Origin: an uncultured Pelagibacteraceae bacterium
GTDB taxonomy: Bacteria > Pseudomonadota > Alphaproteobacteria > Pelagibacterales > Pelagibacteraceae
Length of the DNA stretch: 64,000 nt
Direction: 5' to 3'
NCBI GenBank assembly: GCA_902556905.1
Contig: CACDYK010000009.1
Span: 1 to 64,000 of the forward strand
This document shows, piece after piece, positions 23,680 to 59,474 of this stretch; position 1 is the first letter of the stretch, and every line of letters begins with the position of its first letter. The translations under genes were made by a program, and so were the position numbers. The notes under the pieces were generated by a model that ran no database searches, had not been told where the DNA came from, and saw only the letters and a list, made by a program, of their open reading frames with translations.

Positions 23680-23722
23680 TTATTTTCCCTCTTGTTAATA
23701 AAAGTTAACTTTTTAAGTGCGG

Positions 23723-23752: not shown

Positions 23753-23767
23753 AATAGGTTATTTAAA

Positions 23768-23788: not shown

Positions 23789-23826
23789 GTTTATAATAAA
23801 TCTAAATATACAATTATAAGTTGTAA

Positions 23827-25958: not shown

Positions 25959-25998
25959 TATTAATATTGTTTTATATATCATAACAAAAATTTTTATT

Positions 25999-27402: not shown

Positions 27403-27403
27403 A

Positions 27404-32037: not shown

Positions 32038-33375
32038 TTAAAAATTATTTTATTTATAGTTCTATTTTTAATTTCAGTAAATAAATCATACGCAACAGAA
32101 TTACCAAAACCTTTAACCAATGATGATTTTCATCAAGCTGATATAGAAAAAGTTAAAATAGGTAGACTTTTGTTTCATGATAAAATTTTATCTGCAAATC
32201 GTAATATTGCCTGTGCAACATGTCATAGTCATGATTTAGGAGGTACTGATGGTCTTTCACTTGGTATTGGAGAGGGTGGACATGGTATTGGCTTAAATAG
32301 AACAGCTGGAATTGGAGCAGATAGGATTAAAAAACGAATACCAAGAAATTCTTTAGCTTTATGGAATTTGGGATTTAAAGAAATAACAACACTATTACAT
32401 GATGGAAGGGTGACTAAATCAAATATGTTTGGTAATAATTTTAATACTCCAGCTCAAGAAGCACTTCCAAAGGGTTTAGATAATATTGTTGCGGTACAAG
32501 CTTTATTTCCAATGACTAGGCAATTTGAAATGGCAGGCAATCCAGGTGAAAACGAAATAATAGGACTAGTTTCAAAAGTTGGAAAAGATAGTATGACAAT
32601 TGATAGAGTTTGGCCTGTAATTACACACAGAATTAGAGGAATACCTGAATATGTTAATTTATTTAAAAATGCTTTTGAAGATGTAGATAGTTCTTTAGAT
32701 ATTAATATTACTCATATCGTAAATTCAATTGCTGCTTTTGAAATTCATGAATGGACTTCTTTCGACTCTCCGTTTGATGATTATTTAAACGGTGACAAAA
32801 AAGCTTTAACTTCTAAACAAATTAAAGGAATGGAATTATTTTATGGAAAAGCAAATTGTAGCTCGTGTCACTCAGGATCTTTGTTGTCAGATCAAAAATT
32901 TCACTCAATAGGAATTCCACAGTTTGGACCAGGAAGAACTAGGCCTTTTGATCCTTATGCACGGGATGTAGGTCGTATGGTTGAAACAGATAACATAAAT
33001 GATATGTATAAATTTAAGACACCTGCATTAAGAAATGTTTCTTTAACCGCTCCTTATGGACATAATGGTGCTTACCCAACTCTCAAAGGAATAATCAAAC
33101 AACATTTAGATCCGACTAAAATGAATAAAAATTGGAAACCAGCATATGCAAATTTACCTAATGCTCCTTGGTTAGAGCAGATCGATTTTGTAACTTTTTC
33201 AGATAAAAGGGAACAAGACAGAATACTATCAAGTATAAATATTAAGCCTGTAGACTTAGATGAAAAAGAAATCGATTTATTAGTTTTATTTCTAGAGTCG
33301 CTAACTGGCAAAAGTGGAAATCAAAGACCGCTCGGTAAACCAATTAAAGTACCAAGTGGATTAACAATTGATTAA
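32038..33375 (+). CDS. Di-haem cytochrome c peroxidase/MauG-family protein (start uncertain)
   Basis: A periplasmic c-type cytochrome with two haem sites, CATCH (about residue 59) and CSSCH (about residue 274), and the CCP blocks GHNGAYPTLKGII and FKTPALRNVSLTAPYGHNG. CCPs reduce hydrogen peroxide; MauG relatives oxidise protein side chains. A hydrophobic signal sequence ending KSYA is visible right after 32038, but there is no in-frame ATG, GTG or TTG between the divergent Sel1 start and that signal; candidate starts are TTA 32038 or ATT 32044. The frame stays open upstream through the antisense of the Sel1 gene, where encoded residues look meaningless. A rare start codon or a sequence error is possible. 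Confidence 0.8.
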   Translation, partial: LKIILFIVLFLISVNKSYATELPKPLTNDDFHQADIEKVKIGRLLFHDKILSANRNIACATCHSHDLGGTDGLSLGIGEGGHGIGLNRTAGIGADRIKKRIPRNSLALWNLGFKEITTLLHDGRVTKSNMFGNNFNTPAQEALPKGLDNIVAVQALFPMTRQFEMAGNPGENEIIGLVSKVGKDSMTIDRVWPVITHRIRGIPEYVNLFKNAFEDVDSSLDINITHIVNSIAAFEIHEWTSFDSPFDDYLNGDKKALTSKQIKGMELFYGKANCSSCHSGSLLSDQKFHSIGIPQFGPGRTRPFDPYARDVGRMVETDNINDMYKFKTPALRNVSLTAPYGHNGAYPTLKGIIKQHLDPTKMNKNWKPAYANLPNAPWLEQIDFVTFSDKREQDRILSSINIKPVDLDEKEIDLLVLFLESLTGKSGNQRPLGKPIKVPSGLTID

Positions 33376-35412: not shown

Positions 35413-35865
35413 TTATAGATCTCTAAACCAAAGACCTTCTGGTAAAGGAACTAACAATAAATTTTTAAATCCAAAATATAAGAACAGAACAAATATGCTA
35501 CCAAAAATCATATATAAAGTTATTTTTTTAATACCTGCGTTTAAACCTGAATTTACCAATATTAATAAATTAAAAGCAATTAAACTTGTTAATACAAACC
35601 CTGTTCTTTCTAAAAAATAAATCCATGCAAAGAAAACTATGATTAGTAAGAAAATTTTAACAGTATCTACCTTATCCTTTTCAACTTTAATCTCAATTTT
35701 AAAGGATCTAAAAATTAAAAGCACTGATAACAATAATAGTACAGAAGTTATTGCGTAAGGAAAAACAGAAGCAAAAGGGCTTAACTGATTTGCCTCGTGA
35801 AATAAAACAGTTGATAAAATAATTAAACAAATTCCGGATATGAAAGAAGTAAGATCCTTAATCAT
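35413..35865 (-). CDS. tctB: Tripartite tricarboxylate transporter small subunit TctB
   Basis: A 150-aa membrane protein with four hydrophobic segments, the poorly conserved small subunit of TTT carboxylate transporters. It begins DLTSFISGICLIILSTVLF and ends with a segment (MIFGSIFVLFLYFGFKNLLLVPLPEG) typical of TctB, in which LPEG is near the C-terminus. The start overlaps the tctA stop by four bases. It works with the TctA channel and the periplasmic TctC encoded just upstream. Confidence 0.87.
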   Translation of the reverse strand: MIKDLTSFISGICLIILSTVLFHEANQLSPFASVFPYAITSVLLLLSVLLIFRSFKIEIKVEKDKVDTVKIFLLIIVFFAWIYFLERTGFVLTSLIAFNLLILVNSGLNAGIKKITLYMIFGSIFVLFLYFGFKNLLLVPLPEGLWFRDL

Positions 35866-37361
35866 TTGCTAAATCTTTTTTTATAAATTTTTTTTAAAGC
35901 AGGGAAAAATAAACTCGTAATAATTAGTAAAACTAAAACAAAAGATATTGGTCTGGCAAAATAATTTGCAACAACACTACCTTGAGCACTTCCTATGATG
36001 TACGCTTGAACAAAACCCTGCTCTGCAATTTGACCTAAAACCAAACCTAATACAATTGGCGAGGCTCTAAAACCTGATCTATTTAAGACCCATCCGATTA
36101 AACCAAAGAAAAACATAAAATAAACATTTAAAATGTTATTTTGAATAGAATAACTACCAATAATTGTTAGAAAAATAATTATTGGAATTAAAACTTGTTT
36201 TGGAACTTTTAATAAAGACTTATAAGCATATCGACCCATCAATAAACCTAATGGCAACATCATTATAGTTGCTAAAAGCAATCCAAAAATAAATGTATAA
36301 ACAATTGATGATTGTTGAGTGAAAAGAGTATCACCAGTTCTAATTCCCTGTACTAATAATGCTCCTAAAATTACTGCATCAGGAGGAGTTCCTGGTATTC
36401 CAAGACATAAAGTTGGAACAAAACCACCTCCAACCGTTGCATTGTTTGCAGTTTCAGAGGCAATCAATCCTTCGGGCTCACCTTTACCAAAATTTTCTTT
36501 ATTTTTTGATGTTCTTTTAGCTTCGCCGTAAGAGACAATACTTGCAATACTTCCGCCTGCACCAGGTAAAATTCCAACAAATGTTCCAATTAATGCACCT
36601 CTAACTGCTTCAAATTTTTTAGCAAACATAATTAAAAATGACTCTTTTAATCTAAGACTTTTAGGAGTTTCGTTTTCTCCTAAATGTTTACCTTTCATAC
36701 TAGTAAGATCTAAGATTACAGGAATACAAAAAAGACCGATCATTGCACTGACAATCTCTATTCCACTGTTTAAAAAACTTATATTCCATGTCATTCTGAC
36801 GTCGCCACCAACCACCGCAACACCTATCATTGACATTAACAAACCAATACAAGCGCCAATTAAAGATTTGATATTATCTCCTTCTGATAATGTAGAAATT
36901 AGTGTTAATCCTAACAACGCTAACCAAAAATATTCTGTTGGGCCAAACATTAATGAAACACTTGCAAGTGGAGGAGCAAAAAGAGCAAGGCATATCACGC
37001 CAATTATTCCTCCTATGAATGAGGACATACAGCTAATTGACATAGCTAAATCACCGTCACCTTTTTTTGCTAATGGATAACCATCAAATGTAGTTGCAAC
37101 TGCTGAAGGTGTACCAGGTGTATTAATTAGAATTGCTGACCACGATCCCCCAAAAATTGCCCCAGTATATATTGCCCCAAGAACAATAAGCCCTGATGAT
37201 GGTTCAAGTGCAAATGTGAAAGGAACGAGAATGGCAACCGCCATCGTTGCGGAAAGTCCTGGCAAGGCACCAATGATGATACCCGCCAGAACCCCTGAAA
37301 ATGCTAAACCTAAATTAATTAGGCTCAGTGATGACAAAAAATCTGCAAAAAGACTTGCCAT
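35862..37361 (-). CDS. tctA: Tripartite tricarboxylate transporter large subunit TctA
   Basis: A 499-aa permease with about twelve hydrophobic segments. Family signatures are GIIIGALPGLSATMAVAIL near the N-terminus, GGSWSAILINTPGTPSAVATTFDGYP, and the repeat-like FVGILPGAGGSIAS with LCLGIPGTPPDAVILGAL. It imports carboxylates using the membrane potential together with TctB and TctC. The gene lies 12 bases downstream of tctC, and the divergent D-tartrate dehydratase gene suggests tartrate or a related hydroxy-diacid as cargo (inference). Confidence 0.94.
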   Translation of the reverse strand: MASLFADFLSSLSLINLGLAFSGVLAGIIIGALPGLSATMAVAILVPFTFALEPSSGLIVLGAIYTGAIFGGSWSAILINTPGTPSAVATTFDGYPLAKKGDGDLAMSISCMSSFIGGIIGVICLALFAPPLASVSLMFGPTEYFWLALLGLTLISTLSEGDNIKSLIGACIGLLMSMIGVAVVGGDVRMTWNISFLNSGIEIVSAMIGLFCIPVILDLTSMKGKHLGENETPKSLRLKESFLIMFAKKFEAVRGALIGTFVGILPGAGGSIASIVSYGEAKRTSKNKENFGKGEPEGLIASETANNATVGGGFVPTLCLGIPGTPPDAVILGALLVQGIRTGDTLFTQQSSIVYTFIFGLLLATIMMLPLGLLMGRYAYKSLLKVPKQVLIPIIIFLTIIGSYSIQNNILNVYFMFFFGLIGWVLNRSGFRASPIVLGLVLGQIAEQGFVQAYIIGSAQGSVVANYFARPISFVLVLLIITSLFFPALKKIYKKRFSK

Positions 37362-37373
37362 CTAGAAACTTAA

Positions 37374-38324
37374 TTATTTTATTAAACCAAGTTCTTTAGC
37401 TATCGCTTCATTAGCTGCTTGTTGTTGTTTCATAAAGTCATCAATTTGATCATGACCAATATTCACAACTACGAAAGCACCATCTTCCATCTGTTTTTTG
37501 AATTTAGGATCTGAATTAATTTTCATAATTCTATCAGACCATTCTTTAACAGTTGCTGCAGAAGCTGACTTAGGTAGCGCATAACCTCTGTAAGCACCTG
37601 AAACGATATCAAAACCTAACTCTTTAAATGTTGGAACATCTGGATATGCAGGAAGTCTACTTTCTGATGCAACAGCTAACATTCTAACTTTAGATCCTTG
37701 TTTAGCAGCAACAGTTGAATAACCTGCTTCAGCTACAACTTGTTTACCAAGTAGTGCTTGCACTGCAGCTCCTGTGCCTTTGAAAGGAACATAAGTTGTT
37801 TTGATATTTGCTTTTTGATTTAAAGAAATTGTTAATAAGTGGTTTGCAGAATAAGTTCCAGATCCACTAAAAGTTAATTTACCTGGATTGTTTTTTGCAA
37901 AGTTAATTAATTCAGCAAGACTATTATAAGGGCTAGATGCCTCTACTAGGATTGCATCTGGTGTGTAATGGAAAAAAGAAAAAACATTTACGTCTTCAGT
38001 TTTGTATCCAGCTTTATCACCTTTTGCAATTGGTTGCATAATAATATGTGGAAGGTTAACTCCCATTATAACGCTACCATCACCTTTTTCTGAATTTAAA
38101 GAAGACCAACCTACTGATCCTCCACCACCTGGTTTGTATTGAACAACAATATCGTCATTATAAATACTTTTATAATAAGGTTGTTGCATTCTAGCAGTTA
38201 CATCAGACTCACCGCCTGGACCGAATGGAATTATATTTGTTACTCCTGCATTAGCACCACTTAATGTAATGACCAAAAGTGATATTGTAGCAAGGAATTT
38301 ATTAATGAATGTTTTTAATTTCAT
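37374..38324 (-). CDS. tctC: TTT substrate-binding protein TctC (candidate tartrate binder)
   Basis: A 316-aa periplasmic Bug-family binding protein. The signal peptide ends near ANA (residue 26) and is followed by the Bug carboxylate-binding loop IIPFGPGGESDVTARM. Other blocks are VQYKPGGGGSVGW, LTFSGSGTYSANHL and the second carboxylate loop around VPFKGTGAAVQALLGKQV. A ribosome site (GAGAGAG) precedes the ATG and a promoter is predicted at 38362-38390. Divergent from the D-tartrate dehydratase gene across 154 bases containing phased half-sites. Confidence 0.9.
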   Translation of the reverse strand: MKLKTFINKFLATISLLVITLSGANAGVTNIIPFGPGGESDVTARMQQPYYKSIYNDDIVVQYKPGGGGSVGWSSLNSEKGDGSVIMGVNLPHIIMQPIAKGDKAGYKTEDVNVFSFFHYTPDAILVEASSPYNSLAELINFAKNNPGKLTFSGSGTYSANHLLTISLNQKANIKTTYVPFKGTGAAVQALLGKQVVAEAGYSTVAAKQGSKVRMLAVASESRLPAYPDVPTFKELGFDIVSGAYRGYALPKSASAATVKEWSDRIMKINSDPKFKKQMEDGAFVVVNIGHDQIDDFMKQQQAANEAIAKELGLIK

Positions 38325-38361
38325 TTATCTCTCTCTGTTAATTATTATTTTATAAACGATC

Positions 38362-38390
38362 AAGTTAGTTTTATCTTAAGTAGTTGTCAA
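38362..38390 (-). promoter_or_regulatory. Predicted promoter of the tctC operon
   Basis: Minus strand: consensus -35 TTGACA (38385-38390), 17-base spacer, weak -10 TAACTT (38362-38367), placing the start about 30 bases before the tctC ATG. The -35 is exact; the weak -10 suggests an activator or simply a low-level promoter. Confidence 0.4.
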
Positions 38391-38434
38391 AGACTCAAAA
38401 TTATATTATTTCTAATGCGTCAATGTATCTAAGA

Positions 38435-38464
38435 AGTATTAATATAGTATTGTTTTAATACTAT
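38435..38464. promoter_or_regulatory. Three phased AGTATT half-sites, candidate operator of tct/tarD divergon
   Basis: AGTATT occurs at 38435 and 38446 and its complement AATACT at 38457, with starts exactly 11 bases apart, so all lie on one helix face. The last two form a perfect 8-5-8 inverted repeat (ATAGTATT at 38444-38451, AATACTAT at 38457-38464). The array ends 14 bases before the tarD ATG, where a repressor would block that gene. A GntR-type regulator is plausible but none is encoded beside it. Confidence 0.5.
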
Positions 38465-38478
38465 TCTAAAAATTAAGA

Positions 38479-39645
38479 ATGAAAATTATAAATATTCAAG
38501 AAAAAATAGCTCCTATAAATTCAGAAATTAAAAATGCCTATATTAGTTTTGCTAAAATGGACTGTAGTGTTGTAGCAATTACAACAGATGTGAAAATTGA
38601 TGGTGAAAATATTGTGGGTTATGGATTTCATTCTAACGGAAGGTACGCTGTAAGCGAATTATTGACTAAAAGATTTATACCAAGAATAAAAGAAGCAGAA
38701 GAAAAAGATTTACTAAACGATGAGGGTAACAACTTTAGTCCTAAAAAAATTTGGAGAGTTCTAATGAAAAATGAGAAACCAGGTGGACATGGAGAGAGAA
38801 GTACTGCTGTAGGAGTAATAGATATGGCGGTCTGGGATATTGTTTCAAAAATTGAACAAGCTCCGTTGTATGAACATTTAGCAAAAAAATATGGAAATGG
38901 AAAATTTACTAATAAAATTTTTGTTTATGCAGCAGGTGGGTATTATTATCCAGGTAAAGATATTCAATTATTACAAGATGAAATGAAAGGCTATTTAGAC
39001 TTGGGCTATACTACAGTCAAAATGAAAATAGGAGGTGCTTCTTTAAAGGAAGACTTAAAAAGAATTGAAAGTGTTTTAAAAATTGTTGGTAACGGTAAAA
39101 ATTTATGTGTTGATGCAAATGGAAGATTTGATCTTAATACTGCCATTGAATATGCAAAAGCAATTGAGCCATTTGATTTAAAATGGTTTGAAGAAGCTGG
39201 AGATCCTTTGGATTACAAATTAAATCAAGAATTATCAAAAATTTATAAGAATGGACTTGCTACGGGTGAAAATTTATTTTCCATGCAAGATGCAAGAAAT
39301 TTAATTCGATATGGGGGAATGCGAAAAGATATAGATTGGTTACAATTTGACTGCTCTCTAAGTTATGGACTAGTTGAATATTTAAGAACATTACAAATGA
39401 TGAAAGAAAATGAATGGAGCTCAACAAGAGTGATACCTCATGGTGGTCATCAAATTTCTTGTAATATTGCAGCTGGACTTAATCTAGGTGGTAATGAAAT
39501 ATACCCAAGTTTATTCCAACCTTTTGGTGGATTTCCCGACACTTCAATAGTCGAAGATAGCTATGTATCTTTTTCTAAGTTTATTGGAATGGGTTATGAA
39601 AATAAAAAAGAATTAAAAAATTTACTTATAAAATTGTTTGATTAA
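38479..39645 (+). CDS. tarD: D-tartrate dehydratase (enolase superfamily)
   Basis: A 388-aa enolase-superfamily enzyme whose sequence closely follows the characterised Bradyrhizobium D-tartrate dehydratase as I remember it. Shared blocks are IKNAYISF, VGYGFHSNGRY, EKPGGHGERS, VYAAGGYYYPGK, the KxK base TTVKMKIGG (about residue 182), DANGRF, WFEEAGDPLDY, TGENLFS.QDARNL and the general acid/base histidine in IPHGGHQ. The reaction would convert D-tartrate to oxaloacetate, entering the TCA cycle directly. It is divergent from the tctCAB genes, a sensible uptake partner. Activity on another hydroxy-diacid is possible. Confidence 0.82.
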   Translation: MKIINIQEKIAPINSEIKNAYISFAKMDCSVVAITTDVKIDGENIVGYGFHSNGRYAVSELLTKRFIPRIKEAEEKDLLNDEGNNFSPKKIWRVLMKNEKPGGHGERSTAVGVIDMAVWDIVSKIEQAPLYEHLAKKYGNGKFTNKIFVYAAGGYYYPGKDIQLLQDEMKGYLDLGYTTVKMKIGGASLKEDLKRIESVLKIVGNGKNLCVDANGRFDLNTAIEYAKAIEPFDLKWFEEAGDPLDYKLNQELSKIYKNGLATGENLFSMQDARNLIRYGGMRKDIDWLQFDCSLSYGLVEYLRTLQMMKENEWSSTRVIPHGGHQISCNIAAGLNLGGNEIYPSLFQPFGGFPDTSIVEDSYVSFSKFIGMGYENKKELKNLLIKLFD

Positions 39646-39667: not shown

Positions 39668-40651
39668 TCAAACTAATTTTGAAAGATCTTTTTTATTATT
39701 TTTAAATGTTGGTAGTGGATATTTAAAAGCATATTTTCTTTGAATACATTTTTCTTTTGCTTTTTCCCATAAAGCTAACCATTGTTTAAAGTTTTTGATT
39801 TTAAGATTTTTTTTATTTTTGCTTCTAACATAAAAGTTTGGTAACGGTTCACGTCCTGAAGGTTGTCCAGCAATATTATATCTAAGATCAGCACTTATTC
39901 TAAAATCATCTGATCGATTTGGTAAAGAACAGTGAATTGAATGTTTATGTAAAAGTATTATGTCACCAATATTTGCTTCCAAGTAAACATGTTGCATATT
40001 ATCTAATAATTCACTATTTTTTAACTCTACTTGACCTCGATATCCTGATACATGATTTAATAATCCCATTTTGTTAATTTTTTTTACTGTTATCATGCAA
40101 CCATTTTTAATGGTTGTTTTGGTAAAAGGGATCCAAACAGTAACCATATCAGTTAATTTTTGCCCTCTAGGGTTTAGTACGGCAGCATCCTGATGCCAAG
40201 GAGTTCTTCCACTTAAGCCATCATGAATTGATCCTTTAGGTAATTTTTTTTCAGGCTGTTTGATTCTTGTATTTTGTACAGGATTAGACATTATTTCTTT
40301 TCCTAAGATCTTTTCAACAACATTTAAAACTTTTATATTATTGATTAAATTCCATAATGATTGGGTAGCAAAATAATCGCTTTCTTTTTTAACATGATCT
40401 CGTGGCAATCTAGTATTAAAATATTGGTCTAAATCATGGATATTAAGTTTTGAAATATATGAATATTTTTTTTTAAAATCATATTTCAAAACTTCTTTAA
40501 TATCTTTTTTTTTTGCATATTTTTGAACCAGACAATCCATAACAAATTCCATATCATTCAAAATAGGCTTTAGATCTCTTTTAAAGTTAAGCACATTTTT
40601 AACTTTTAAAAAACCTTGTTCATAAAGTTTCTTTTGAAGACTATTTTGCAT
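39668..40651 (-). CDS. Phytanoyl-CoA dioxygenase (PhyH) family protein
   Basis: A 327-aa non-haem Fe(II)/2-oxoglutarate dioxygenase. The iron triad is visible as the histidine and aspartate in PWHQDAAV and the distal histidine in LHKHSIHCSLPNRSDD; the 2OG-binding arginine is probably in DFRISADLRYN. The family hydroxylates diverse small molecules, including lipids, ectoine and halogenated or secondary metabolites, so the substrate is open. It is the third gene of a minus-strand set with a PanE-like reductase and another 2OG oxygenase; it starts 31 bases after the previous stop. Confidence 0.83.
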   Translation of the reverse strand: MQNSLQKKLYEQGFLKVKNVLNFKRDLKPILNDMEFVMDCLVQKYAKKKDIKEVLKYDFKKKYSYISKLNIHDLDQYFNTRLPRDHVKKESDYFATQSLWNLINNIKVLNVVEKILGKEIMSNPVQNTRIKQPEKKLPKGSIHDGLSGRTPWHQDAAVLNPRGQKLTDMVTVWIPFTKTTIKNGCMITVKKINKMGLLNHVSGYRGQVELKNSELLDNMQHVYLEANIGDIILLHKHSIHCSLPNRSDDFRISADLRYNIAGQPSGREPLPNFYVRSKNKKNLKIKNFKQWLALWEKAKEKCIQRKYAFKYPLPTFKNNKKDLSKLV

Positions 40652-40682
40652 AATAAAATTTTATTTTATCATAAAGATAATA

Positions 40683-41552
40683 TCAATGCTTAGGTACAGT
40701 AGTTAAATAATTTGCATCATGAAAAGAAGTCAACATTCTTTTTTTTGTGCTTATTATATGTGGATAATACAATGTGTTTTTATAATTCCATATGACTGGT
40801 TTATTTAAAGCATAGCTTCCGTAAAGAAAAAATCTTTTAGGGCAATTTTTTTCAATAAATCTTTTGACCCCATGATAAGAATTAGGTGTTGATTGAAAAA
40901 AAACTACAGTACCTTGTTTTGGAGTAAATTCTTTGACAATCTCTAGCTCATTAATCTTAGGAAATCTTCGAAAGCTTTTTCTAATGTTTTTTTTTGTTTT
41001 TTTTTTATAAATTGTAAGTGAGCCACCATTTTTTTTTGGAATATCAGTTAAATAAATCAAAAAATTATATAACCTGGTAATATCATCTCGATGTGGTCTT
41101 AATCTGTACCCACCTCTTGAAACAGAAAAATCAATATCTAAGTTTACTTTTGGATTTTTGTAGTTATTTCCAAGTATTTTTTTTAGTTCACTAGAATTTA
41201 GTTTCTTCTTGATGGTAAATTTACTTTTATTAAAAATATTTGGAAGATTTTCATTTTTCCAAGAAGTATTTTCAAATTTATTTTTAAAAATTTTCTCAAT
41301 TTTTTTATAAAAAGATTTACTATTAAAAAGTTTAAAAATTTTTTGCGAAATTTTAGAGTTTTTTATATAAATATTAAAATTTTTTGAACCTTTATTTATA
41401 CGACTTCTTCCACCCATGATCATATCGTCAAAGGATTTAGAATTGCTTATTTCTTTTATTAACACTTTACAAATACTTTTAGAGAGAACTTTATCACCTA
41501 CTAAAACTGGAAAATTACTTTTGATAATCTTTAATCTTTCGATTTTAAGCAT
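40683..41552 (-). CDS. 2OG-Fe(II) oxygenase, prolyl-hydroxylase-like
   Basis: A 289-aa protein with a lysine-rich N-terminal half and a C-terminal dioxygenase core. Iron ligands: histidine and aspartate in RPHRDDITRLYN, distal histidine in NSYHGVKRF. GGSLTIY and TPKQGTVVFFQS are the usual beta-strand flanks, and the lysine/arginine in KRFFLYGSY may bind 2OG. The order and spacing match the 2OG-FeII_Oxy_3 type. Its start codon immediately follows the stop of the PanE-like gene, so the two are co-translated. Substrate unknown; a nearby second dioxygenase suggests two successive oxidations. Confidence 0.72.
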   Translation of the reverse strand: MLKIERLKIIKSNFPVLVGDKVLSKSICKVLIKEISNSKSFDDMIMGGRSRINKGSKNFNIYIKNSKISQKIFKLFNSKSFYKKIEKIFKNKFENTSWKNENLPNIFNKSKFTIKKKLNSSELKKILGNNYKNPKVNLDIDFSVSRGGYRLRPHRDDITRLYNFLIYLTDIPKKNGGSLTIYKKKTKKNIRKSFRRFPKINELEIVKEFTPKQGTVVFFQSTPNSYHGVKRFIEKNCPKRFFLYGSYALNKPVIWNYKNTLYYPHIISTKKRMLTSFHDANYLTTVPKH

Positions 41553-42497
41553 TTAGCTATACATTCCCTCCTTAACTTTAATCATTTTGTACATTAGGTC
41601 GTTTAAAGGAGTCTTTATTCCATGTTTTTTTCCAAGATTTGAAACAACACCACTAATAAAATCAATCTCCGTTTTTCTTTTATATTGAACATCAAAAGCC
41701 ATTGAGGATTTATTTGTTTGGTTTGAATCTACAATTTTATTAAACATAAAAAGACACTCATCTTCAGATACTTCAACTCCATCTGCTAAAGCAACCTGTC
41801 TAGTCTCTAGTATAATTTCTTTACCCAGCGATCTTGAAACATTACTGGCATTATTGTTAATGTATAGATCTGTATGATGAAGATCAAAAATTGCTGATAA
41901 TGGGCCAATAGCTGTTAATGCAAAAAGCTTCATCCATTTTCTTTTTTTTACATCGTCTGCTGCAATGGTTTCTAAATTATAGGCAGTAAATGTATCGGCT
42001 ACATTATTAACCCTTTCACTCATTCCACCTTCGTATTCACCTATCCAAGATGGCAAAGCAGCATGATTCATTATATGACCAGGTCCTAATATATTTGATG
42101 CCTGAGTTGTTGTTCCACCTAAAACTTTTTCCACACCAACAATTTTTTGCATAATAGCTTCGTGGCCAAAACCATTTTGAAAAGACATGAAAACAGTTTT
42201 TTCTCCAATAATATTTTTGATACTATTAAGAGCTGGTTCTAATGCGGTTGCTTTACACATTACAATCACTGCATCAACAACATCTACAGTTGACGGATCA
42301 GTTGTTGCTTTAACTTTAATAACTCTATCCCCACCGTGACCATCCATTTTAAGACCATTTTTATTGATAGCTTCGACGTGTTCTTTCCAAACATCTATAA
42401 GAATTACATTTAATCCTTTTTCTGCTAACAAACCTCCAAATAAACAGCCCATTGCTCCTGCGCCCAAAACTGCAACTTTTAAATCTTTATTTATCAT
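41553..42497 (-). CDS. Ketopantoate reductase (PanE/ApbA) family protein with altered active site
   Basis: A 314-aa NAD(P)-dependent reductase fold: N-terminal Rossmann motif VLGAGAMGCLFGGLLA, then FQNGFGHE and GGTTTQASNI, a C-terminal helical domain with WMKLFALTAIGPLSA, and the RKTEIDFISG glutamate block. The helix lysine and the glutamate of PanE are kept, but the two asparagines that normally follow (as in KLAVN and INPLTA of E. coli PanE) are replaced by Leu and Gly. It may therefore act on a 2-ketoacid other than ketopantoate. First gene of the PanE-like/2OG/PhyH set and divergent from the DUF1907 gene. Confidence 0.78.
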   Translation of the reverse strand: MINKDLKVAVLGAGAMGCLFGGLLAEKGLNVILIDVWKEHVEAINKNGLKMDGHGGDRVIKVKATTDPSTVDVVDAVIVMCKATALEPALNSIKNIIGEKTVFMSFQNGFGHEAIMQKIVGVEKVLGGTTTQASNILGPGHIMNHAALPSWIGEYEGGMSERVNNVADTFTAYNLETIAADDVKKRKWMKLFALTAIGPLSAIFDLHHTDLYINNNASNVSRSLGKEIILETRQVALADGVEVSEDECLFMFNKIVDSNQTNKSSMAFDVQYKRKTEIDFISGVVSNLGKKHGIKTPLNDLMYKMIKVKEGMYS

Positions 42498-42522
42498 TAT
42501 CCCTTTTTTAAATTAATTTATG

Positions 42523-42548
42523 TATAGATATTATATATATTATCTATA
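42523..42548. promoter_or_regulatory. Inverted repeat TATAGATA/TATCTATA in a divergent promoter region
   Basis: Perfect 8-base arms at 42523-42530 and 42541-42548 around a 10-base AT centre lie in the 86-base gap between the PanE-like and DUF1907 genes; outer bases ATG..CAT extend the symmetry imperfectly. A further CTATAG lies directly before the DUF1907 ATG (42578-42583). The MarR-like protein encoded two genes downstream is a natural candidate to bind it. Confidence 0.42.
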
Positions 42549-42583
42549 GACATTATGCAAAATAATATATAGCTTAACTATAG

Positions 42584-43552
42584 ATGCAATTAAAAATAGA
42601 AAAATCAAAATTTAAAGAATATTCACTAGATAAAATCTCTCAAGCTTTACAAAATGGATTATCAAGTAATTACAAAGTAGTTGAAGTATCAATAGTTGAT
42701 TGTCCAAATTTAAGAGATTGGGGTTGTCCATCAGAAGGAATTAGTGGTAATCAAAAAATCATCGATGTAGGAGGCGAACCATACATGCACGATCCTAAAT
42801 TCATTGGTGCTGAATTTGATTATGAAGAAATTTCAAAAATGATTGGTTCAGAGAAATCTTATGCTTTAGGTGCTGGTTCAGGAGCTATGTCATGTTTAGA
42901 TGGTCATTGTGGAGAATTAATAATTAATGAAAATCTAATTACCTCAGAGTCGAAATCAATAATAGCTCGAGTTGGAAAAGATAAAGAATGTATTGCTGAA
43001 AAATATACAGCTAGAAAACATGGTGGATTAGGTAATGTTTTTTATACCGATGGAGTTCAAGGAAAAGTTATCAAAATTAAAATAAAAGGAAGATCTGGAG
43101 AGCAGGGCTCTCTTAGTCAATCAATGAGAAAAGCTTTGACTGATAATTTACAAATTAAAGATAACGATCACATAGCTTTGGCAGGTGTTTTTAGAATTTT
43201 AAATGGAAAGATAAAATCTCATGTACAGCCTGATTATAAGGACATTAAGCATGAGTATTATGATCCTAAACAAATGAAATGTGTAAAAGATTTTTTACAA
43301 TTTTATGAACCAGTTGGACCTGAGTTACAAGGTTACTGTGTGCTTTGGACTGGTGACCCAACAGGAGGAGATCTTAATTTAAGAGAGTCTGGAGAACATA
43401 CTCACTTTCATTCTTATACGAAAGAAAATATAGCAGGCCATTATCACTTTGATGTAACTCCTGAAGAAATAGAATATGAGGGTTATTTTAATACCGCAGA
43501 AGAAGTGCACAGAGTTAATAATATATATAAGGAATTAACCTATAAAAAATAA
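42584..43552 (+). CDS. DUF1907 protein, homologue of C11orf54 ester hydrolase
   Basis: A 322-aa protein clearly of the DUF1907 family, better known from animals (C11orf54/PTD012), where a zinc-dependent ester hydrolase activity has been reported. Key blocks are VGGEPYMHDPKF, GAGSGAMSCLDGHCGELI, ARKHGGLGNVFYTDG and the C-terminal histidine cluster EHTHFHS (272-277) with GHYHFD (285-290), the expected zinc site, then VEY/IEYEGYF. No signal peptide, so cytoplasmic. First gene of a three-gene set with a MarR-like regulator and a PanB-like protein. Physiological substrate in bacteria is unknown. Confidence 0.82.
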   Translation: MQLKIEKSKFKEYSLDKISQALQNGLSSNYKVVEVSIVDCPNLRDWGCPSEGISGNQKIIDVGGEPYMHDPKFIGAEFDYEEISKMIGSEKSYALGAGSGAMSCLDGHCGELIINENLITSESKSIIARVGKDKECIAEKYTARKHGGLGNVFYTDGVQGKVIKIKIKGRSGEQGSLSQSMRKALTDNLQIKDNDHIALAGVFRILNGKIKSHVQPDYKDIKHEYYDPKQMKCVKDFLQFYEPVGPELQGYCVLWTGDPTGGDLNLRESGEHTHFHSYTKENIAGHYHFDVTPEEIEYEGYFNTAEEVHRVNNIYKELTYKK

Positions 43553-43587
43553 TATTAATTTAACTTTCTTTGAGATAACATTTTAGA

Positions 43588-44001
43588 ATGAAGAAACAAT
43601 TTAAGTATCCTAAATATTTTGAAGAACAAAAAAAAATTCCAAAAATAACTCAAAAAAGAATTAAGTTAGCAGAGGCATCATTAGGAGATTTTGAAGGTAG
43701 ATTAGAGAATGATTTGCTTAATTGGTTTTCATTAACTCCTCAGCATTGGATTATGCTTCATATGGTAATGCTTGCTTATTATAAAAATAAATCAATTACT
43801 AAAAATGAATTATTAAAAGTTATTGAGAAGTCATACTTAACATCAAATGTTTACATAGATACAGCGATTAAAAAAGGTTTTTTTAGAATTATTAGAAATG
43901 AAAAAGACAAAAGATCAATTTTTATTCTACCATCAGTAATAACAATAAAAACTTTTGAAGGTTTTATAGACAGAAGAGATACAGTTTATAAAGGAATTTA
44001 A
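43588..44001 (+). CDS. MarR-like winged-helix regulator
   Basis: A 137-aa protein with a basic N-terminus and a winged-helix region: helix LTPQHWIMLHMVMLAYY, helix-turn-helix SITKNELLKVIEKSYLTSNVYIDTAIKKGFF, then a wing NEKDKRSIFILPS that follows the MarR pattern (charged loop, then beta-strand). It is shorter than most MarR proteins and the C-terminal dimer helix is not obvious, so dimerisation may differ. Its stop overlaps the next ATG (TAATG). Probable local regulator of the flanking divergent genes; the target could be the inverted repeat at 42523. Confidence 0.6.
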   Translation: MKKQFKYPKYFEEQKKIPKITQKRIKLAEASLGDFEGRLENDLLNWFSLTPQHWIMLHMVMLAYYKNKSITKNELLKVIEKSYLTSNVYIDTAIKKGFFRIIRNEKDKRSIFILPSVITIKTFEGFIDRRDTVYKGI

Positions 44002-44816
44002 TGAAAAATATTTATACCTGGGCAGCACAACCAGCTAAACGAACTTTAACAGTAGCAGATCTAAAAGCAGCTAAAGGCAGAAAGAAATTTACTCAAGTCA
44101 CAGCAAATTCACATGACGAAGCTCAAGCTGCAGAGAAAGCTGGTTTTGATATGATTATTTGCCAAGCTAAAAATGTTTCAAAAGTAAGAGAGGGATCAAA
44201 ACATCTATTTTTAACAGCTTCTTTAATTCTTAACGAATATGTAACTAAGGAAGATGTTATGAGAGGTGCTTTTAAAGCATTAGAGAATGGTGCAGATGCG
44301 GTCATGACTCCTAGAAGTATGGAGGTAGTAGAAATGTTAACTAAAGAAGATATTCCTGTCATGGGTCATTTGGGTTTAGTTCCAAGAAAATCAACATCAC
44401 TTGGTGGAATGAGAGCAATAGGAAAAACTGCAAATGAAGCATATGAATTATTTCAAAAATTTAAGAGATTAGAAGACGCAGGAGCTTTTTCTGCAGAGTG
44501 TGAGGTCATCCCTGAAAATGTAATGGGTGAAATTTCGAAAAGAACAGATATCGTAACAGTATCCTTAGGAGCTGGAAAAAAAGCTGATGTTATGTATTTG
44601 TTTATGGAAGATATATGTGGAGATACAGAAAATTTACCAAGACATTCTAAAGCTTATGGTAATTTACTAAAACTTAGAAATGAAATTAAGCTTGAGAGAG
44701 TAAGAGCACTTAAAGCTTTTAAAAAAGATACTATGAGTGGAATATTTCCTGGAAAAAAACAGTCCTCTAACTTAGATAAAAAACAACTTGATGAATTTTT
44801 GAGTAAGATTGATTAA
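44001..44816 (+). CDS. PanB-like (ketopantoate hydroxymethyltransferase fold) protein lacking metal ligands
   Basis: A 271-aa TIM-barrel protein of the PanB/PEP-mutase superfamily. PVMGHLGLVPRKSTSLGGMRAIGK and the C-terminal MSGIFPGKK align with PanB, and AGAFSAECEVIP keeps the catalytic-region glutamate. However, the two metal-binding aspartates of PanB (in VGDS and LADLPF of the E. coli enzyme) appear as CQAK and LTASLIL, and about 17 residues between them are missing. A normal Mg-dependent hydroxymethyl transfer therefore seems unlikely. It is co-translated with the MarR-like gene and overlaps the convergent aldolase gene by four bases. Function unknown. Confidence 0.7.
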   Translation: MKNIYTWAAQPAKRTLTVADLKAAKGRKKFTQVTANSHDEAQAAEKAGFDMIICQAKNVSKVREGSKHLFLTASLILNEYVTKEDVMRGAFKALENGADAVMTPRSMEVVEMLTKEDIPVMGHLGLVPRKSTSLGGMRAIGKTANEAYELFQKFKRLEDAGAFSAECEVIPENVMGEISKRTDIVTVSLGAGKKADVMYLFMEDICGDTENLPRHSKAYGNLLKLRNEIKLERVRALKAFKKDTMSGIFPGKKQSSNLDKKQLDEFLSKID

Positions 44817-45607
44817 TAAGTACCCGAGTCTTCTTTTTTACCAACTGAACCTTTCATTCCATCTACCATTGATTTAGCACCAGCACTTAATGCTCTTAGA
44901 TCAGATGCAATAGTCACAAAATCAAAACCTTTTTCAATCATCTTTGTTGCGTATTCTGGAGTTCCATTATGAATACCAGCAAAAATATTATTTTTTTTAG
45001 CATGTTCTAGAATTCTTAAAATTTCAGAATAAGCTTTTGTGCTTTCAGGTCTATCAAATCCAGGTTTTTCACCTATTGCTAAACTTAGATCAGCTGGACC
45101 TATATAAATACCATCTACACCTTCAGTTGACATAATTTCATCTAACTTTCCAAGAGACTCCTCGGTTTCAATCATAGCTAACTTTAAAATTTCATCATTA
45201 GCATGTTCTGCATAATCAGGACCTCCATAAATCAAACCTCTAATTGGCCCAAAACTTCGATATCCATTAGGAGGATACATACAAGCTTGTACAAATTTTT
45301 CAGCTTCTTCTTTATTACTAACCATTGGACAAATCACTCCATAACAGCCAGCATCTAAAATTTTCATTATTTGCCCTGGCTCATTCCAATTAACTCTTGC
45401 TAGTGGAGTAACTTCAGTGGTTGAAATAGTTTGAAGCATTGGAAGTGCATTACTGTAATCCACCAAACCATGTTGCATGTCTATAGTTAGAGAGTCCCAA
45501 CCTTGATGAGCCATAGCTTCTGCAGAAGCTGTACTTGGGATTGCACACCAACCATTAATTACAGGTTTCCCTGCTTTCATCATTTCTTTTATTTTGTTTT
45601 TTCTCAC
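44813..45607 (-). CDS. HpcH/HpaI-family class II aldolase
   Basis: A 264-aa metal-dependent aldolase that splits 2-keto-3-deoxy (or 4-hydroxy-2-keto) acids into pyruvate and an aldehyde. Active-site features: the histidine in DMQHG (about residue 45), arginine in LARVNW, metal ligands glutamate in MIETEES and aspartate in IGPADLS. The sequence is close to 2-keto-3-deoxy-L-rhamnonate and 4-hydroxy-2-oxoheptanedioate aldolases. It lies two bases downstream of an aldehyde dehydrogenase gene that would oxidise its aldehyde product. Confidence 0.88.
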   Translation of the reverse strand: MRKNKIKEMMKAGKPVINGWCAIPSTASAEAMAHQGWDSLTIDMQHGLVDYSNALPMLQTISTTEVTPLARVNWNEPGQIMKILDAGCYGVICPMVSNKEEAEKFVQACMYPPNGYRSFGPIRGLIYGGPDYAEHANDEILKLAMIETEESLGKLDEIMSTEGVDGIYIGPADLSLAIGEKPGFDRPESTKAYSEILRILEHAKKNNIFAGIHNGTPEYATKMIEKGFDFVTIASDLRALSAGAKSMVDGMKGSVGKKEDSGTY

Positions 45608-45609
45608 AA

Positions 45610-47052
45610 TTATATTTTTAAACCCATGTGAGTGTATTTTACATTCAGATAATCTTTAATTGCACCAGAACCGCCTTCACGTCCATAACCAGTTTGTTTT
45701 ATTCCACCAAAAGGTGCTTCAGCAAGCGCAACTACCCCAGTGTTAACTGCAACACATCCAGACTCTAATTTTTCTGATCCAATATGAGCTTTGTCCATAG
45801 AGTTTGTGTATAGATAACTACATAAACCTAAATCATTATCATTAGCTCTTTCAATAACTTCATCAAAAGTTTTAAAAGTTAAAATAGGTACCAGTGGACC
45901 AAATGGCTCTTCTTTCATGATTGTGAAATTATCTTTAATATCATCAAATACAGTTGGTTCGTAATAATATCCTTTATTGAAACCAGAAGGTCTTTTTCCA
46001 CCCATTAAAACTTTTGCTCCCTCCTTTTTTGTAGTTTCAACCAATTTTTCTATTTCCTCTAATCTCTTTGCAGTACTTAAAGGTCCTAGTTCAACACCTT
46101 CATCCATACCATTTCCTATTTTTAATTTTTTTGCTCTTTCCATAAAAGCACTTACAAACTCTTCTTTTCTATTTTCTTGAATATAAAATCTATTAGGAGA
46201 AATACAAACTTGTCCATTATTTCTAAATTTACCAGCTATAGCTATATCAGCAACTTTGTTCATATCTACATCTTCACATACTATAAAAGGAGAGTGGCCA
46301 CTTAACTCCATGGTAACTCTTTGAACTTTATCAGCTGCTTTTTTTAAAATTATTTTTCCAACTCTTGTAGAACCAGTAATTGATACTTTTTTAATTATGT
46401 CTGACTCCATCAGCTCATTTGATATTTCAGCTGGATCACCTGACAAAAGACTAACCACACCATCTGGTACACCTGCCTCTTTACATATATTAACTAATTC
46501 CATTACTGCGCCAGGTGTAATTGTATCTGGCTTACAAATAACAGAACAACCTGCTGCTAAAGCAGTTGAAATTTTTCTTGATGCTAACACAATTGGAAAA
46601 TTCCATGGAACTAAAGCAGCTACAACACCTACTGGTTGATAGTAAACATGAACTCTAGTATCTGGAAATCTACTTTGTTGTGTTTGACCATAAATTCTTT
46701 TTGTTTCTTCAGCATTCCATTCAAAAATATCAGCTCCGCCACCGACTTCTCCAACAGCTTCAGCAAGAGGTTTTCCAACTTCAAGCGTCATCCATTTTGC
46801 TAGGATTTCTTTTTTTTCTCTCATTAAGTCAGCAATCTTTCTAAGCACATAAGCTCTCTGCCAAGGCGCAGTATTTTTCCAAATCTCTAATCCTTTTTCA
46901 GCAGACTTTAACGCTCTTTGCACTTCTATAGAGGATGCTTTTGATGCTTTTCCAATCACTTCTTCTGTTGCAGGATTGATTACATCGTAAGTTTCTTTTT
47001 TTTCAGCTTGTTGCCATTTACCATCAATGAATTGTCCAAATTTTTCGTACAT
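45610..47052 (-). CDS. NAD(P)-dependent aldehyde dehydrogenase (succinate-semialdehyde type)
   Basis: A 480-aa aldehyde dehydrogenase. The nucleotide site is VPWNFPI and ITGSTRVGK, the general base is the glutamate of VTMELSGHSPFIV, and the nucleophile is the cysteine in NNGQVCISPNR. PFGPLVPI and the C-terminal PFGGIKQTGYGREGG are standard. The MELSGHSP segment differs from the usual MELGGNAP, which may affect the pocket. It pairs with the aldolase downstream; glycolaldehyde, lactaldehyde or succinate semialdehyde are possible substrates. Divergent from iolD across 92 bases. Confidence 0.88.
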   Translation of the reverse strand: MYEKFGQFIDGKWQQAEKKETYDVINPATEEVIGKASKASSIEVQRALKSAEKGLEIWKNTAPWQRAYVLRKIADLMREKKEILAKWMTLEVGKPLAEAVGEVGGGADIFEWNAEETKRIYGQTQQSRFPDTRVHVYYQPVGVVAALVPWNFPIVLASRKISTALAAGCSVICKPDTITPGAVMELVNICKEAGVPDGVVSLLSGDPAEISNELMESDIIKKVSITGSTRVGKIILKKAADKVQRVTMELSGHSPFIVCEDVDMNKVADIAIAGKFRNNGQVCISPNRFYIQENRKEEFVSAFMERAKKLKIGNGMDEGVELGPLSTAKRLEEIEKLVETTKKEGAKVLMGGKRPSGFNKGYYYEPTVFDDIKDNFTIMKEEPFGPLVPILTFKTFDEVIERANDNDLGLCSYLYTNSMDKAHIGSEKLESGCVAVNTGVVALAEAPFGGIKQTGYGREGGSGAIKDYLNVKYTHMGLKI

Positions 47053-47144
47053 AAGTTTTATTTTTAGGTTTACTTAATTAGGTTTTTTAATTTATAAATA
47101 TATTTATATTTAAACACTATACATATTAAAAAATAAACATATTT

Positions 47145-48989
47145 ATGAAAAAAATTACTCTCACTTGTGCTCATGCAATTGTAAAATATTTAATTGCTCA
47201 AAAAATATTAATTAATGGTAAAAAAGAACCTTTATTTCCAGGTGTGTTTGGAATTTTTGGTCATGGTAATGTAGCGTGTTTAGGTCAAGCTCTTGAAGAA
47301 AATCAAAAAGAGCTTCCAACTTATAGAGGGCACCATGAACAGAACATGGCTCTTACAGGTATTGGTTATGCAAGAGCAAAGAGAAGGCAGCAAATTTTTG
47401 TAGCAACATCATCTGTTGGACCAGGAGCAACAAATATGGTTACGGCCGCTGCAGTTGCGATGAGTAATAGGTTGCCGATTTTATTTTTACCAGGTGATAC
47501 TTATGCTAACAGAATGCCTGACCCAGTTTTACAACAGGTTGAACACTTTAATAATCCAGGAATTACAGCAAATGATGCTTTTAAATCTGTAACTAGATAC
47601 TTTGATAGAATTACAAGACCAGAACAAATCATACAATCATTTCCAGCTGCCGTTCAAACTATGTTGGATCCTGCAGATTGTGGGCCAGCTTGCATAGCTT
47701 TAAGTCAAGATATTCAAGGACAAACATTTGATTATCCAGAAGAATTTTTTAAAGAGAAGATTCATGCGATTAGAAGACCTAGACCTGATGAATTTCAAAT
47801 AAAAGAAGCAGCAGAAAAAATTAAGACTTCAAAAAATCCTATAATTATATCTGGAGGAGGAGTTTTTTATTCAGATGCTATGGAAGATTTAAGTAACTTT
47901 GCAATTAAGCATAATATTCCAGTTACTCAAACTGTAATGGGTTATTCTACAATGAAAAGAGATCACTCACATTTTGCTGGACAAATTGGAGGGTTAGGTG
48001 GAAAAAATAGTAATTCATTAGCTAAACAAACAGATCTAGCTATTGCAGTTGGGACTAAACTTGCAGATTTTACAACAGGGTCATGGGCTAATTTTGAAAA
48101 CGAAAATTTTAAACTTGTTTCAATTAATGTCTCAAGATTTGACGCAAACAAACACTTGGCTCAAGCAGTTGTTGGTGATGCAAAAGTTTCGTTAAATGAT
48201 TTGTCTCAAGCACTAGGTGATTGGAAAGCTGGAGAGGAATGGAACAAAAAATCTCAAGCTGAATTAAAGACTTGGAATGAACAAGTAGATAAAGAGAGTG
48301 CGCCCACAAATCAAGAGGTGCCAAGTTATGTTCAGGTAATAGGTGCTGTATATCGAAATTCAGATCCAACAGATATTGCGGTTACGGCTGCAGGGGGATT
48401 GGTTGGTGAAGTAGTGCAAGTTTGGAGACCAAGAGAATTGAATACACATGAAACAGAATGGGGTTTTAGTTGTATGAGTTATGAAATTTCTGGTGCGTTA
48501 GGAATTAAAATGGCAAATCCAGATAAAGAAGTTATCTCTTTTATTGGTGATGGATCATACCTATTAAATAATACAGATATTTATTCTTCAGTAATTACGA
48601 AAAATAAACTTATCATTATTGTATGTGATAATGGAGGGTTTGCAGTTATTAACAGACTTCAATTATTTAAAGGTGGAAAAGAATTTAACAATTTACTTAA
48701 AAGTTCAAAAACACCAGGACTTGTGAATGTTGACTTTGCAAAACATGCTGCAAGTATGGGTGCTAAATCTGAAGAAGTAAGTTCAATTTCTGATTTAGAA
48801 GAAGCATTTAAAAGAGCAAAAAAATCTGATGTGACTTATGTTATTTCCATTAAAACACACGCTTATAAATGGCTAGAAGGTTCAGCTTTTTGGGATAGTC
48901 CAACACTAGAAATTCCAACCACAGAAGAAAATAAAGAAGCTATAAAACTTTATAAAGAAGGAAAATCAAAACAAAGACAAGGCGTATAA
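47145..48989 (+). CDS. iolD: 3D-trihydroxycyclohexane-1,2-dione hydrolase
   Basis: A 614-aa thiamine-diphosphate enzyme that opens the ring of the inositol-derived diketone formed by IolE. The catalytic glutamate is in YRGHHEQNMALTG (about residue 66), the ThDP/Mg motif is GDGSYLLNNTDIYSS (about residues 465-479) followed by DNGGFAVINRLQ, and the IolD-specific start TCAHAIVKYLIAQK and GVFGIFGHGNVACLGQAL are present. It is far from iolE/iolG (20 kb) and is followed eight bases later by a Gfo/Idh gene, so the inositol pathway is split across at least two transcription units. Confidence 0.93.
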   Translation: MKKITLTCAHAIVKYLIAQKILINGKKEPLFPGVFGIFGHGNVACLGQALEENQKELPTYRGHHEQNMALTGIGYARAKRRQQIFVATSSVGPGATNMVTAAAVAMSNRLPILFLPGDTYANRMPDPVLQQVEHFNNPGITANDAFKSVTRYFDRITRPEQIIQSFPAAVQTMLDPADCGPACIALSQDIQGQTFDYPEEFFKEKIHAIRRPRPDEFQIKEAAEKIKTSKNPIIISGGGVFYSDAMEDLSNFAIKHNIPVTQTVMGYSTMKRDHSHFAGQIGGLGGKNSNSLAKQTDLAIAVGTKLADFTTGSWANFENENFKLVSINVSRFDANKHLAQAVVGDAKVSLNDLSQALGDWKAGEEWNKKSQAELKTWNEQVDKESAPTNQEVPSYVQVIGAVYRNSDPTDIAVTAAGGLVGEVVQVWRPRELNTHETEWGFSCMSYEISGALGIKMANPDKEVISFIGDGSYLLNNTDIYSSVITKNKLIIIVCDNGGFAVINRLQLFKGGKEFNNLLKSSKTPGLVNVDFAKHAASMGAKSEEVSSISDLEEAFKRAKKSDVTYVISIKTHAYKWLEGSAFWDSPTLEIPTTEENKEAIKLYKEGKSKQRQGV

Positions 48990-59450: not shown

Positions 59451-59474
59451 TTATAAAGACAGTACATTTAACTT

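Follow-up and report, generated by a model that had tools for sequence, protein, structure and literature searches.

A 64,000-nucleotide stretch of an uncultured Pelagibacteraceae bacterium (hereafter the window; GenBank assembly GCA_902556905.1, contig CACDYK010000009.1, positions 1 to 64,000) carries a cassette of six adjoining genes in two divergent sets, which is a real, selected and probably regulated accessory catabolic unit. Its invariant core consists of the genes for a PhyH-type Fe(II)/2-oxoglutarate (2OG) oxygenase, a PanE/KPR-family dehydrogenase (PanE-like) and a DUF1907 protein; a second 2OG oxygenase, a MarR-like regulator and a PanB-like protein (PanBL) are optional. Tentatively, we read the unit as a MarR-controlled accessory catabolic cassette in an inositol locus that oxidises, dehydrogenates and decarboxylates a substituted cyclitol or sugar acid. 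The host is a Pelagibacter (SAR11), with an assembly of 1.28 Mb in 42 contigs. Pelagibacter is among the most abundant marine organisms, although for many of its carbon sources the evidence is so far indirect. The cassette probably lets the cell use a modified (e.g. methylated) sugar-like compound. It is a testable lead to a dissolved compound that Pelagibacter may use and provides a genetic context for bacterial DUF1907.

In the proposed mechanism, the oxygenase or oxygenases would hydroxylate or oxidatively demethylate the substituted cyclitol or sugar acid, the PanE-family enzyme would turn the hydroxyl into a ketone with NAD(P), and the DUF1907 enzyme would decarboxylate the resulting beta-keto acid to a product that could enter the surrounding inositol/sugar-acid route. 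Where present, PanBL would probably handle the group removed by the oxygenase (e.g. a one-carbon unit) rather than synthesise ketopantoate. We infer the substrate and the one-carbon role as well as the order of the steps, the last because the chemistry suggests oxygenase, then dehydrogenase, then decarboxylase.

Conservation, insertion site and control region

The six open reading frames lie where a preliminary description of this DNA had placed them (Table 1). To follow them across genomes, we used two sets of loci: the best 80 of 269 related stretches in the genome_contigs collection, all from Pelagibacteraceae or Candidatus Pelagibacter, and ten relatives with sufficiently long contigs. The sets overlap, as the DUF1907 gene of 4 of the 10 relatives is identical in DNA to that of at least one of the 80 loci; of the 91 DUF1907 genes, the window's included, 86 are distinct. 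Only loci with enough flank were scored as evaluable. The gene order in the ten relatives is PhyH, second 2OG oxygenase and PanE-like on one side, DUF1907, MarR-like and PanB-like divergently on the other, and then a convergent aldolase gene, with members absent in some. The PhyH and PanE-like genes were present in all ten relatives and in 68/68 and 78/78 evaluable loci, respectively. The second oxygenase was found in 9/10 relatives and 72/73 evaluable loci, the MarR-like gene in 6/10 and 79/80, and the PanB-like gene in 8/10 and 69/79. One locus outside the evaluable set (L050) also lacks the second oxygenase, PhyH following PanE by at most 1.3 kb. The flanking aldolase gene was present in 10/10 relatives and 76/76 evaluable loci, and iolD in 9/9 and 68/68.

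The two divergent sets had been described as tightly coupled, and they do behave as one unit. The core is kept together in every evaluable locus. The same holds in a survey panel of 101 relatives, where PanE-like orthologues (E ≤ 1e-40) occur in 11 genomes, all within the 12 that are DUF1907-positive; in the twelfth, G050, the contig starts inside DUF1907 (L023). Two genomes (G052, G024) have PhyH orthologues without DUF1907 and one (G005) has a close PanB-like gene without it. These three and G050 were considered as independent occurrences of the genes and rejected, as their cassettes are severed by contig ends. Thus, on the question of independent occurrence, raised in the preliminary description, the core genes were not found apart, but PanB-like genes, and PhyH-type genes at large, are also present outside the cassette.

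Purifying selection acts on the cassette genes: in the six pairs with the least divergence for each gene, the ratio of nonsynonymous to synonymous substitution rates (dN/dS) was 0.015–0.174 (dS 0.34–1.3). DUF1907 looks rare: matches were found in 1 of 385 genomes of a class sample and 1 of 299 of a phylum sample, in each case the window genome alone. No DUF1907 relative was found in viral contigs, phages or plasmids, so a phage or plasmid origin of the cassette is unsupported. The gene set had been said to match no known pathway; we agree, as we know of no described pathway that fits it and of no other place where this combination occurs.

The insertion site was defined by comparison with cassette-free genomes. 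Orthologues of the HpcH aldolase occur in 21 and of IolD in 20 of the 101 relatives. Ten HpcH-positive genomes gave no DUF1907 hit, one of them being the cut cassette of G005. Six of the remaining nine were inspected, and in 6/6 a 2-hydroxyacid dehydrogenase gene lies 5–24 bases from the aldolase gene, leaving an empty site. In cassette genomes (L014 and L018–L022), the same dehydrogenase gene ends 11–16 bases from PhyH. Therefore, the cassette is an insertion (or loss) at one site of the inositol locus, between the 2-hydroxyacid dehydrogenase and aldolase genes and beside the aldolase-aldehyde dehydrogenase (ALDH)-iolD end. The aldolase and ALDH had been proposed to supply the last steps of the pathway. 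We rejected this assignment, because both are part of the host inositol locus and are retained where the cassette is missing.

The two gene sets share an 86-base control region, as had been noted. Its inverted repeat, TATAGATATTATATATATTATCTATA (26 bases), is unremarkable by itself, as 8 of 150 shuffles of such AT-rich DNA gave an equally good palindrome, yet it is tied to the MarR-like gene. The pattern TATAGA-N14-TCTATA was found in 82/84 loci with the MarR-like gene and in 0/5 without it; when each intergenic sequence was counted once, the values were 43/45 and 0/4. Both MarR-positive exceptions (L081, L096) retain one half-site, as does L100 among the loci that lack gene and operator (L018, L019, L020, L022 and L100). 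In the 64 kb window the pattern has one match only. Regulator and operator therefore come and go together, although the five losses are possibly not independent, and the coupled unit is probably under the control of the MarR-like protein. Five of the six protein families exceed their Pfam cut-offs. The MarR-like protein is the exception: its SarA/Rot-type matches stay below threshold (PF22381, 19.1 bits, cut-off 27; TIGR01889, 25.4 bits, cut-off 62.6), its family assignment is not certain, and its predicted structure model, with a predicted local distance difference test (pLDDT) score of 42.8, was too poor to use.

MarR-type control of a divergent promoter, together with the patchy presence across the genus, would also suit a defence or detoxification unit, with the MarR-like protein sensing a cyclitol, keto acid or one-carbon compound that is reactive or toxic. 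We consider this improbable in view of the fixed location in the inositol locus and of the oxygenase-dehydrogenase-decarboxylase set, which would be typical of catabolism.

Core enzymes and the host inositol route

The DUF1907 protein matches PF08925 over the full length of the profile (1–285 of 285) and PDB entry 1xcr with E 4.2e-36 over residues 10–313. The predicted metal-binding residues H272, H274, H286 and H288 are conserved in 90/90 loci. Like C11orf54/PTD012, of which it is a homologue, the protein keeps the histidine-rich C-terminal segments EHTHF and GHYH; it differs in its bacterial origin and in its place among genes for oxygenases and a PanE-family dehydrogenase. Human C11orf54, which for a long time was labelled an ester hydrolase, is now reported to be the missing 3-dehydro-L-gulonate decarboxylase, with a fold that resembles acetolactate decarboxylase (Galperin commentary, PMC12435205). 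The earlier label of the cassette protein as a C11orf54-type zinc hydrolase thus needs correction, and we replaced it by assignment to this family, now reported as beta-keto-acid decarboxylases (PMC12435205). In rotifers, DUF1907 is fused to a 3HCDH-type dehydrogenase domain that catalyses the preceding step (PMC12435205). These fusions mirror the PanE-DUF1907 pairing and thereby support dehydrogenation plus decarboxylation: by analogy, the invariant pair reads naturally as hydroxy-acid oxidation followed by decarboxylation.

The PanE-like protein scores well above the TIGR00745 cut-off of 141.35. Residue D35 is present in 88/88 loci, and the catalytic Asn and Lys of the family are retained as N108 in 87/88 and K190 in 86/88, the remainder being unaligned there. 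Its second-best solved relative is PDB entry 3wfi (E 3.9e-34), a KPR-family protein with which it has the segment LID-x-W-x-EHV in common. Asp35 follows the second strand, within LIDVWKEHV, and matches the acidic residue of 3wfi, which suggests NAD rather than NADP as the cofactor. The entry is titled 2-dehydropantoate 2-reductase; the protein is an NAD-dependent D-2-hydroxyacid (mandelate) dehydrogenase. The genomic context gives no support to ketopantoate as substrate of the PanE-like protein.

Both oxygenases keep the HxD...H facial triad and the distal Arg. In PhyH, H153, D155, H240 and R251 were found in 77/78 loci, the remaining locus being unaligned there. The second oxygenase has H154 and D156 in 81/81 loci and H227 and R240 in 80/81, with the other unaligned. 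No PDB relative of the second oxygenase was found by sequence at E ≤ 1. The best solved relative of PhyH by sequence is a tailoring hydroxylase (2rdn). This match, and the tandem pair of oxygenases, would be in line with a cassette for the biosynthesis or tailoring of a secreted small molecule instead of catabolism. Such a function is quite unlikely, given that the cassette and its scanned neighbours contain no synthetase or ligase gene, that the set includes a dehydrogenase and a decarboxylase, and that the site lies inside a catabolic locus with sugar and tripartite ATP-independent periplasmic (TRAP) uptake genes.

The host locus resembles the canonical myo-inositol pathway (IolG-E-D-B-C-J-A) in that IolG, IolE and IolD exceed their curated cut-offs (Table 1). 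It differs in two respects. First, IolB/KduI (PF04962) was found in 0/20 genomes (above cut-off in 5/14 control genomes), and no IolC (TIGR04382) above cut-off was found in the same 20 (best score 99.7 against 300; above cut-off in 3/14 controls). IolJ and IolA were outside this search, and 18 of its 20 genomes have IolD; several are incomplete, but the IolD-positive G004 and G039 are at 95–96% completeness. Second, the host locus includes ALDH, HpcH aldolase and 2-hydroxyacid dehydrogenase genes, which are adjacent in the empty-site genomes. These three may form a different lower inositol route. It would be consistent with them if the aldehyde of 5-deoxyglucuronate were oxidised first, followed by alpha-oxidation and a retro-aldol step that yields hydroxypyruvate and malonate semialdehyde.

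The cassette could also be the Pelagibacter counterpart of the glucuronate-xylulose route known from animals, in which the oxygenase would alpha-hydroxylate a deoxy-uronate (e.g. the IolD product), the PanE-family enzyme would act as gulonate-3-dehydrogenase and DUF1907 would form a pentulose by decarboxylation. Hydroxylation alpha to a carboxyl, as this route would have it, is the classical reaction of PhyH enzymes, and with neither IolB/KduI nor above-cut-off IolC in any of the 20 genomes the IolD product seems to need another exit. The DUF1907 family, moreover, is reported to act as beta-ketogulonate decarboxylase (PMC12435205). We nevertheless consider the route rather unlikely: cassette-free genomes with iolD and the aldolase-ALDH pair exist, which indicates that the iolD route can run without the cassette, and no reductase step was identified among the genes.

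The PanB-like protein, its neighbours and the substrate

In PanB, D45 and D84 are Mg ligands, and K112 and E114 are catalytic. We aligned 31 PanBL sequences with the PanB proteins of E. coli and R. etli. In PanBL, the D45 loop is shortened; GDSLG occurs in 0/31 sequences and an Asp in the D45 column in 4/31. D84 is kept in 1/31, and K112 and E114 in 0/31. H136 and E181 are found in 31/31, and E166 and H215 are new invariant residues. The window protein scores 102.6 bits against TIGR00222 (panB), under the cut-off of 207.55, and its predicted structure model (pLDDT 49.7) was too poor to use. Sixteen PanB proteins of SAR11 relatives and two reference PanBs retain all six of these residues and group together in a single clade (18 tips, support 1.0), the only clade used from the tree of 49 PanB and PanBL tips. 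A separate PanB, with GDSLG, KLEGG and GHLGL intact, is also encoded in the window genome.

For R. etli, one report states that RHE_PE00443 on p42e is non-functional in pantothenate synthesis and cannot restore it, and that the metal site was not detected (PMC3082293). One of our PanBL genes (at L188) is this gene, as identified by plasmid, annotation, length (271 versus 270 residues) and its being the sole match in the record rather than by locus tag. The earlier assignment of the cassette protein as PanB-like thus holds for the fold family, but the PanB metal site is lost, and the R. etli homologue reportedly fails to complement panB (PMC3082293). On the missing site and this published failure, we rejected PanB-type pantoate metabolism. 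The label PanB therefore needs correction, and the subfamily, annotated as ketopantoate hydroxymethyltransferase in the records examined, is set apart from true PanB.

Two cassette genes carry pantoate-pathway folds, and a pantoate-type or vitamin route, in which the PanE and PanB folds would act on pantoate or ketopantoate in salvage or degradation, had to be weighed. It is already largely refuted and, in our judgement, extremely improbable: the metal-site and K112/E114 residues are lost, the TIGR00222 score is low, the genome has its own motif-intact PanB, and the homologue on p42e is reported as unable to stand in for panB (PMC3082293).

Oxygenase or Rieske-ferredoxin genes recur beside PanBL genes in other bacteria. 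Outside SAR11, the closest PanBL found (~55% identity) come from plasmids of Mesorhizobium and Bradyrhizobium. There, PanBL is followed by genes for a fatty-acid-hydroxylase-family protein, a Rieske ferredoxin and a reductase, and in Bradyrhizobium a sugar isomerase gene is interposed. On two roseobacter plasmids, the hydroxylase-family gene adjoins PanBL, and no ferredoxin or reductase genes are beside it. On R. etli p42e, S. meliloti pSymB and in Phyllobacterium, PanBL (~40% identity) comes after genes for a desaturase (Pfam-confirmed in two of the three), a MocE-family ferredoxin and a reductase; in Phyllobacterium, purU then follows. An unannotated Ensifer stretch has the same desaturase-ferredoxin-reductase-PanBL run. 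The task of MocDEF is O-demethylation. Two papers place mocDEF-type (rhizopine) clusters in R. etli and R. leguminosarum (PMC3538637, PMC10107442). The rhizobial runs resemble the cassette in having a PanB-like gene of the same subfamily beside an oxygenase system, in a context of inositol-derivative catabolism (PMC3538637, PMC10107442). They differ in that their desaturase, ferredoxin and reductase give way to 2OG oxygenases in the cassette, which also contains the PanE-like and DUF1907 proteins; among the 40 window proteins scanned by Pfam, none is a mocD desaturase, mocE ferredoxin or mocF reductase. A literature search found no paper that pairs the enzyme name with rhizopine, or ketopantoate hydroxymethyltransferase with sterol desaturase, and our statement extends to these pairings only.

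To quantify the association, we counted neighbours in a class sample, in which PanBL (E ≤ 1e-35) was found in 18 of 337 genomes, the window's included, at 21 places. An oxygenase or MocE-type Rieske gene was present in 11/19 PanBL stretches outside SAR11 compared to 3/39 control stretches (Fisher p 7e-5), and an oxygenase alone in 10/19 compared to 2/39 (Fisher p 8e-5). The models were built without the test loci and do not count ring-hydroxylating Rieske oxygenases. The controls came from 13 of the 17 genomes that yielded the 19 stretches, and one control match (L279), on the same contig as a PanBL gene and 10–13 kb away from it, was kept as a control.

Four other Pelagibacter PanBL copies adjoin PhyH genes. 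G006 (L163:5319-10243) and G041 (L164:6105-11029) contain a second PanB-like gene (67% identity), divergent from a PhyH gene and with a GMC oxidoreductase gene after it; on the far side of PhyH lies a flavin-monooxygenase-like gene. In G019 (L165:1022-2769) and G002 (L166:7417-9126), a third PanB-like type (39% identity) stands in tandem with a different PhyH.

The mocDEF parallel and the inositol locus led us to O-methyl-cyclitols as candidate substrates. The preliminary description had guessed at a branched or methylated compound that is oxidised, hydrolysed and cleaved at a C-C bond. Oxidation and C-C cleavage are possible, with the mocDEF association as indirect support, and hydrolysis is unsupported. 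A mycosporine or gadusol substrate was weighed on chemistry alone and set aside.

Several points weigh against a cassette that degrades a substituted cyclitol or sugar acid as outlined above. The substrate is inferred, and the association with the aldolase and iolD is positional: as a single insertion site is inherited together, it is not independent functional evidence for a metabolic link. The decarboxylase activity of the family comes from one human enzyme, known through a commentary (PMC12435205). Of the 19 class-level PanBL stretches, eight gave no match to the models that were counted. Among these eight, L201 carries a gene for a ring-hydroxylating Rieske oxygenase, which was left out of the 11, and no oxygenase gene was found in the other seven. 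PanBL is absent from 10/79 evaluable loci and 2/10 relatives, and it is these ten loci that the O-methyl-cyclitol reading fits worst. The MarR-like gene is absent from 1/80 evaluable loci and 4/10 relatives. These losses indicate that the unit can do without the one-carbon and regulator roles.

A more far-reaching version, which we hold to be unlikely, makes the PanB-like subfamily a new enzyme type for the one-carbon group from O-demethylating oxygenases (2OG, MocD-type or fatty-acid-hydroxylase-type). The cassette would then be a complete new pathway for O-methylated or substituted cyclitols or sugar acids, with C11orf54-type decarboxylation as its last step, feeding a route that bypasses IolB and IolC via aldehyde oxidation and the HpcH aldolase.

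Feature positions and neighbouring genes

Table 1. Positions in the window of the cassette features and of genes of the host inositol locus.
Feature	Positions	Strand	Profile match or remark
PhyH-type Fe(II)/2OG oxygenase, core	39668-40651	-	PF05721, 59.9 bits
Second 2OG-Fe(II) oxygenase, optional	40683-41552	-	PF13640 (2OG-FeII_Oxy_3), 42.7 bits
PanE/KPR-family hydroxyacid dehydrogenase, core	41553-42497	-	ApbA 134.6, ApbA_C 101.4, TIGR00745 240.1 bits
Common divergent control region, 86 bases	42498-42583	none	between PanE-like and DUF1907 genes
Palindromic putative operator TATAGA-N14-TCTATA	42523-42548	none	coupled to presence of MarR-like gene
DUF1907/C11orf54-type predicted metal-dependent beta-keto-acid decarboxylase, core	42584-43552	+	PF08925, 201.4 bits
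MarR/SarA-like winged-helix regulator, optional	43588-44001	+	PF22381 and TIGR01889, both sub-threshold
PanB-like protein without PanB metal site, optional	44001-44816	+	PF02548 (Pantoate_transf), 135.6 bits
HpcH/HpaI-type aldolase, host inositol locus	44813-45607	-	not a cassette member
ALDH, host inositol locus	45610-47052	-	not a cassette member
IolD	47145-48989	+	TIGR04377, 801.5 bits (cut-off 715)
IolE	25999-26901	+	TIGR04379, 396.6 bits (cut-off 290)
IolG	23827-24828	-	TIGR04380, 362.5 bits (cut-off 355)

The inositol locus spans positions 22756-28369 and 44813-48989 of the window. For a sugar-type binding protein in the locus, the best match is to the rhizopine binding protein, with a score of 317.7 that stays under the cut-off of 420. 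In the window, genes for a TctABC transporter and an enolase-superfamily (MR_MLE) protein lie at 35413-39645, between the cassette and a 2-hydroxyacid dehydrogenase gene. They were considered as cassette members and rejected, since they adjoin the cassette in the window and G024 only and not in L013-L022 or the 80 loci. A second TctABC set is found at 58479-61463.

In G217, a cluster (L204) combines genes for a MocE-type ferredoxin, a sugar isomerase, a PanB-like protein and two GFO/IDH/MocA proteins with purU, and this is a second lineage that ties PanB-like genes to purU. Within the window's inositol locus, positions 26902-27402 encode a conserved 166-residue protein with no Pfam match at E ≤ 1e-5, whose gene lies beside the 2-hydroxyacid dehydrogenase gene in the empty-site genomes. 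Finally, a di-haem cytochrome c peroxidase/MauG-type protein (PF03150) is encoded at 31612-33375, adjoining an inositol-dehydrogenase-like gene.

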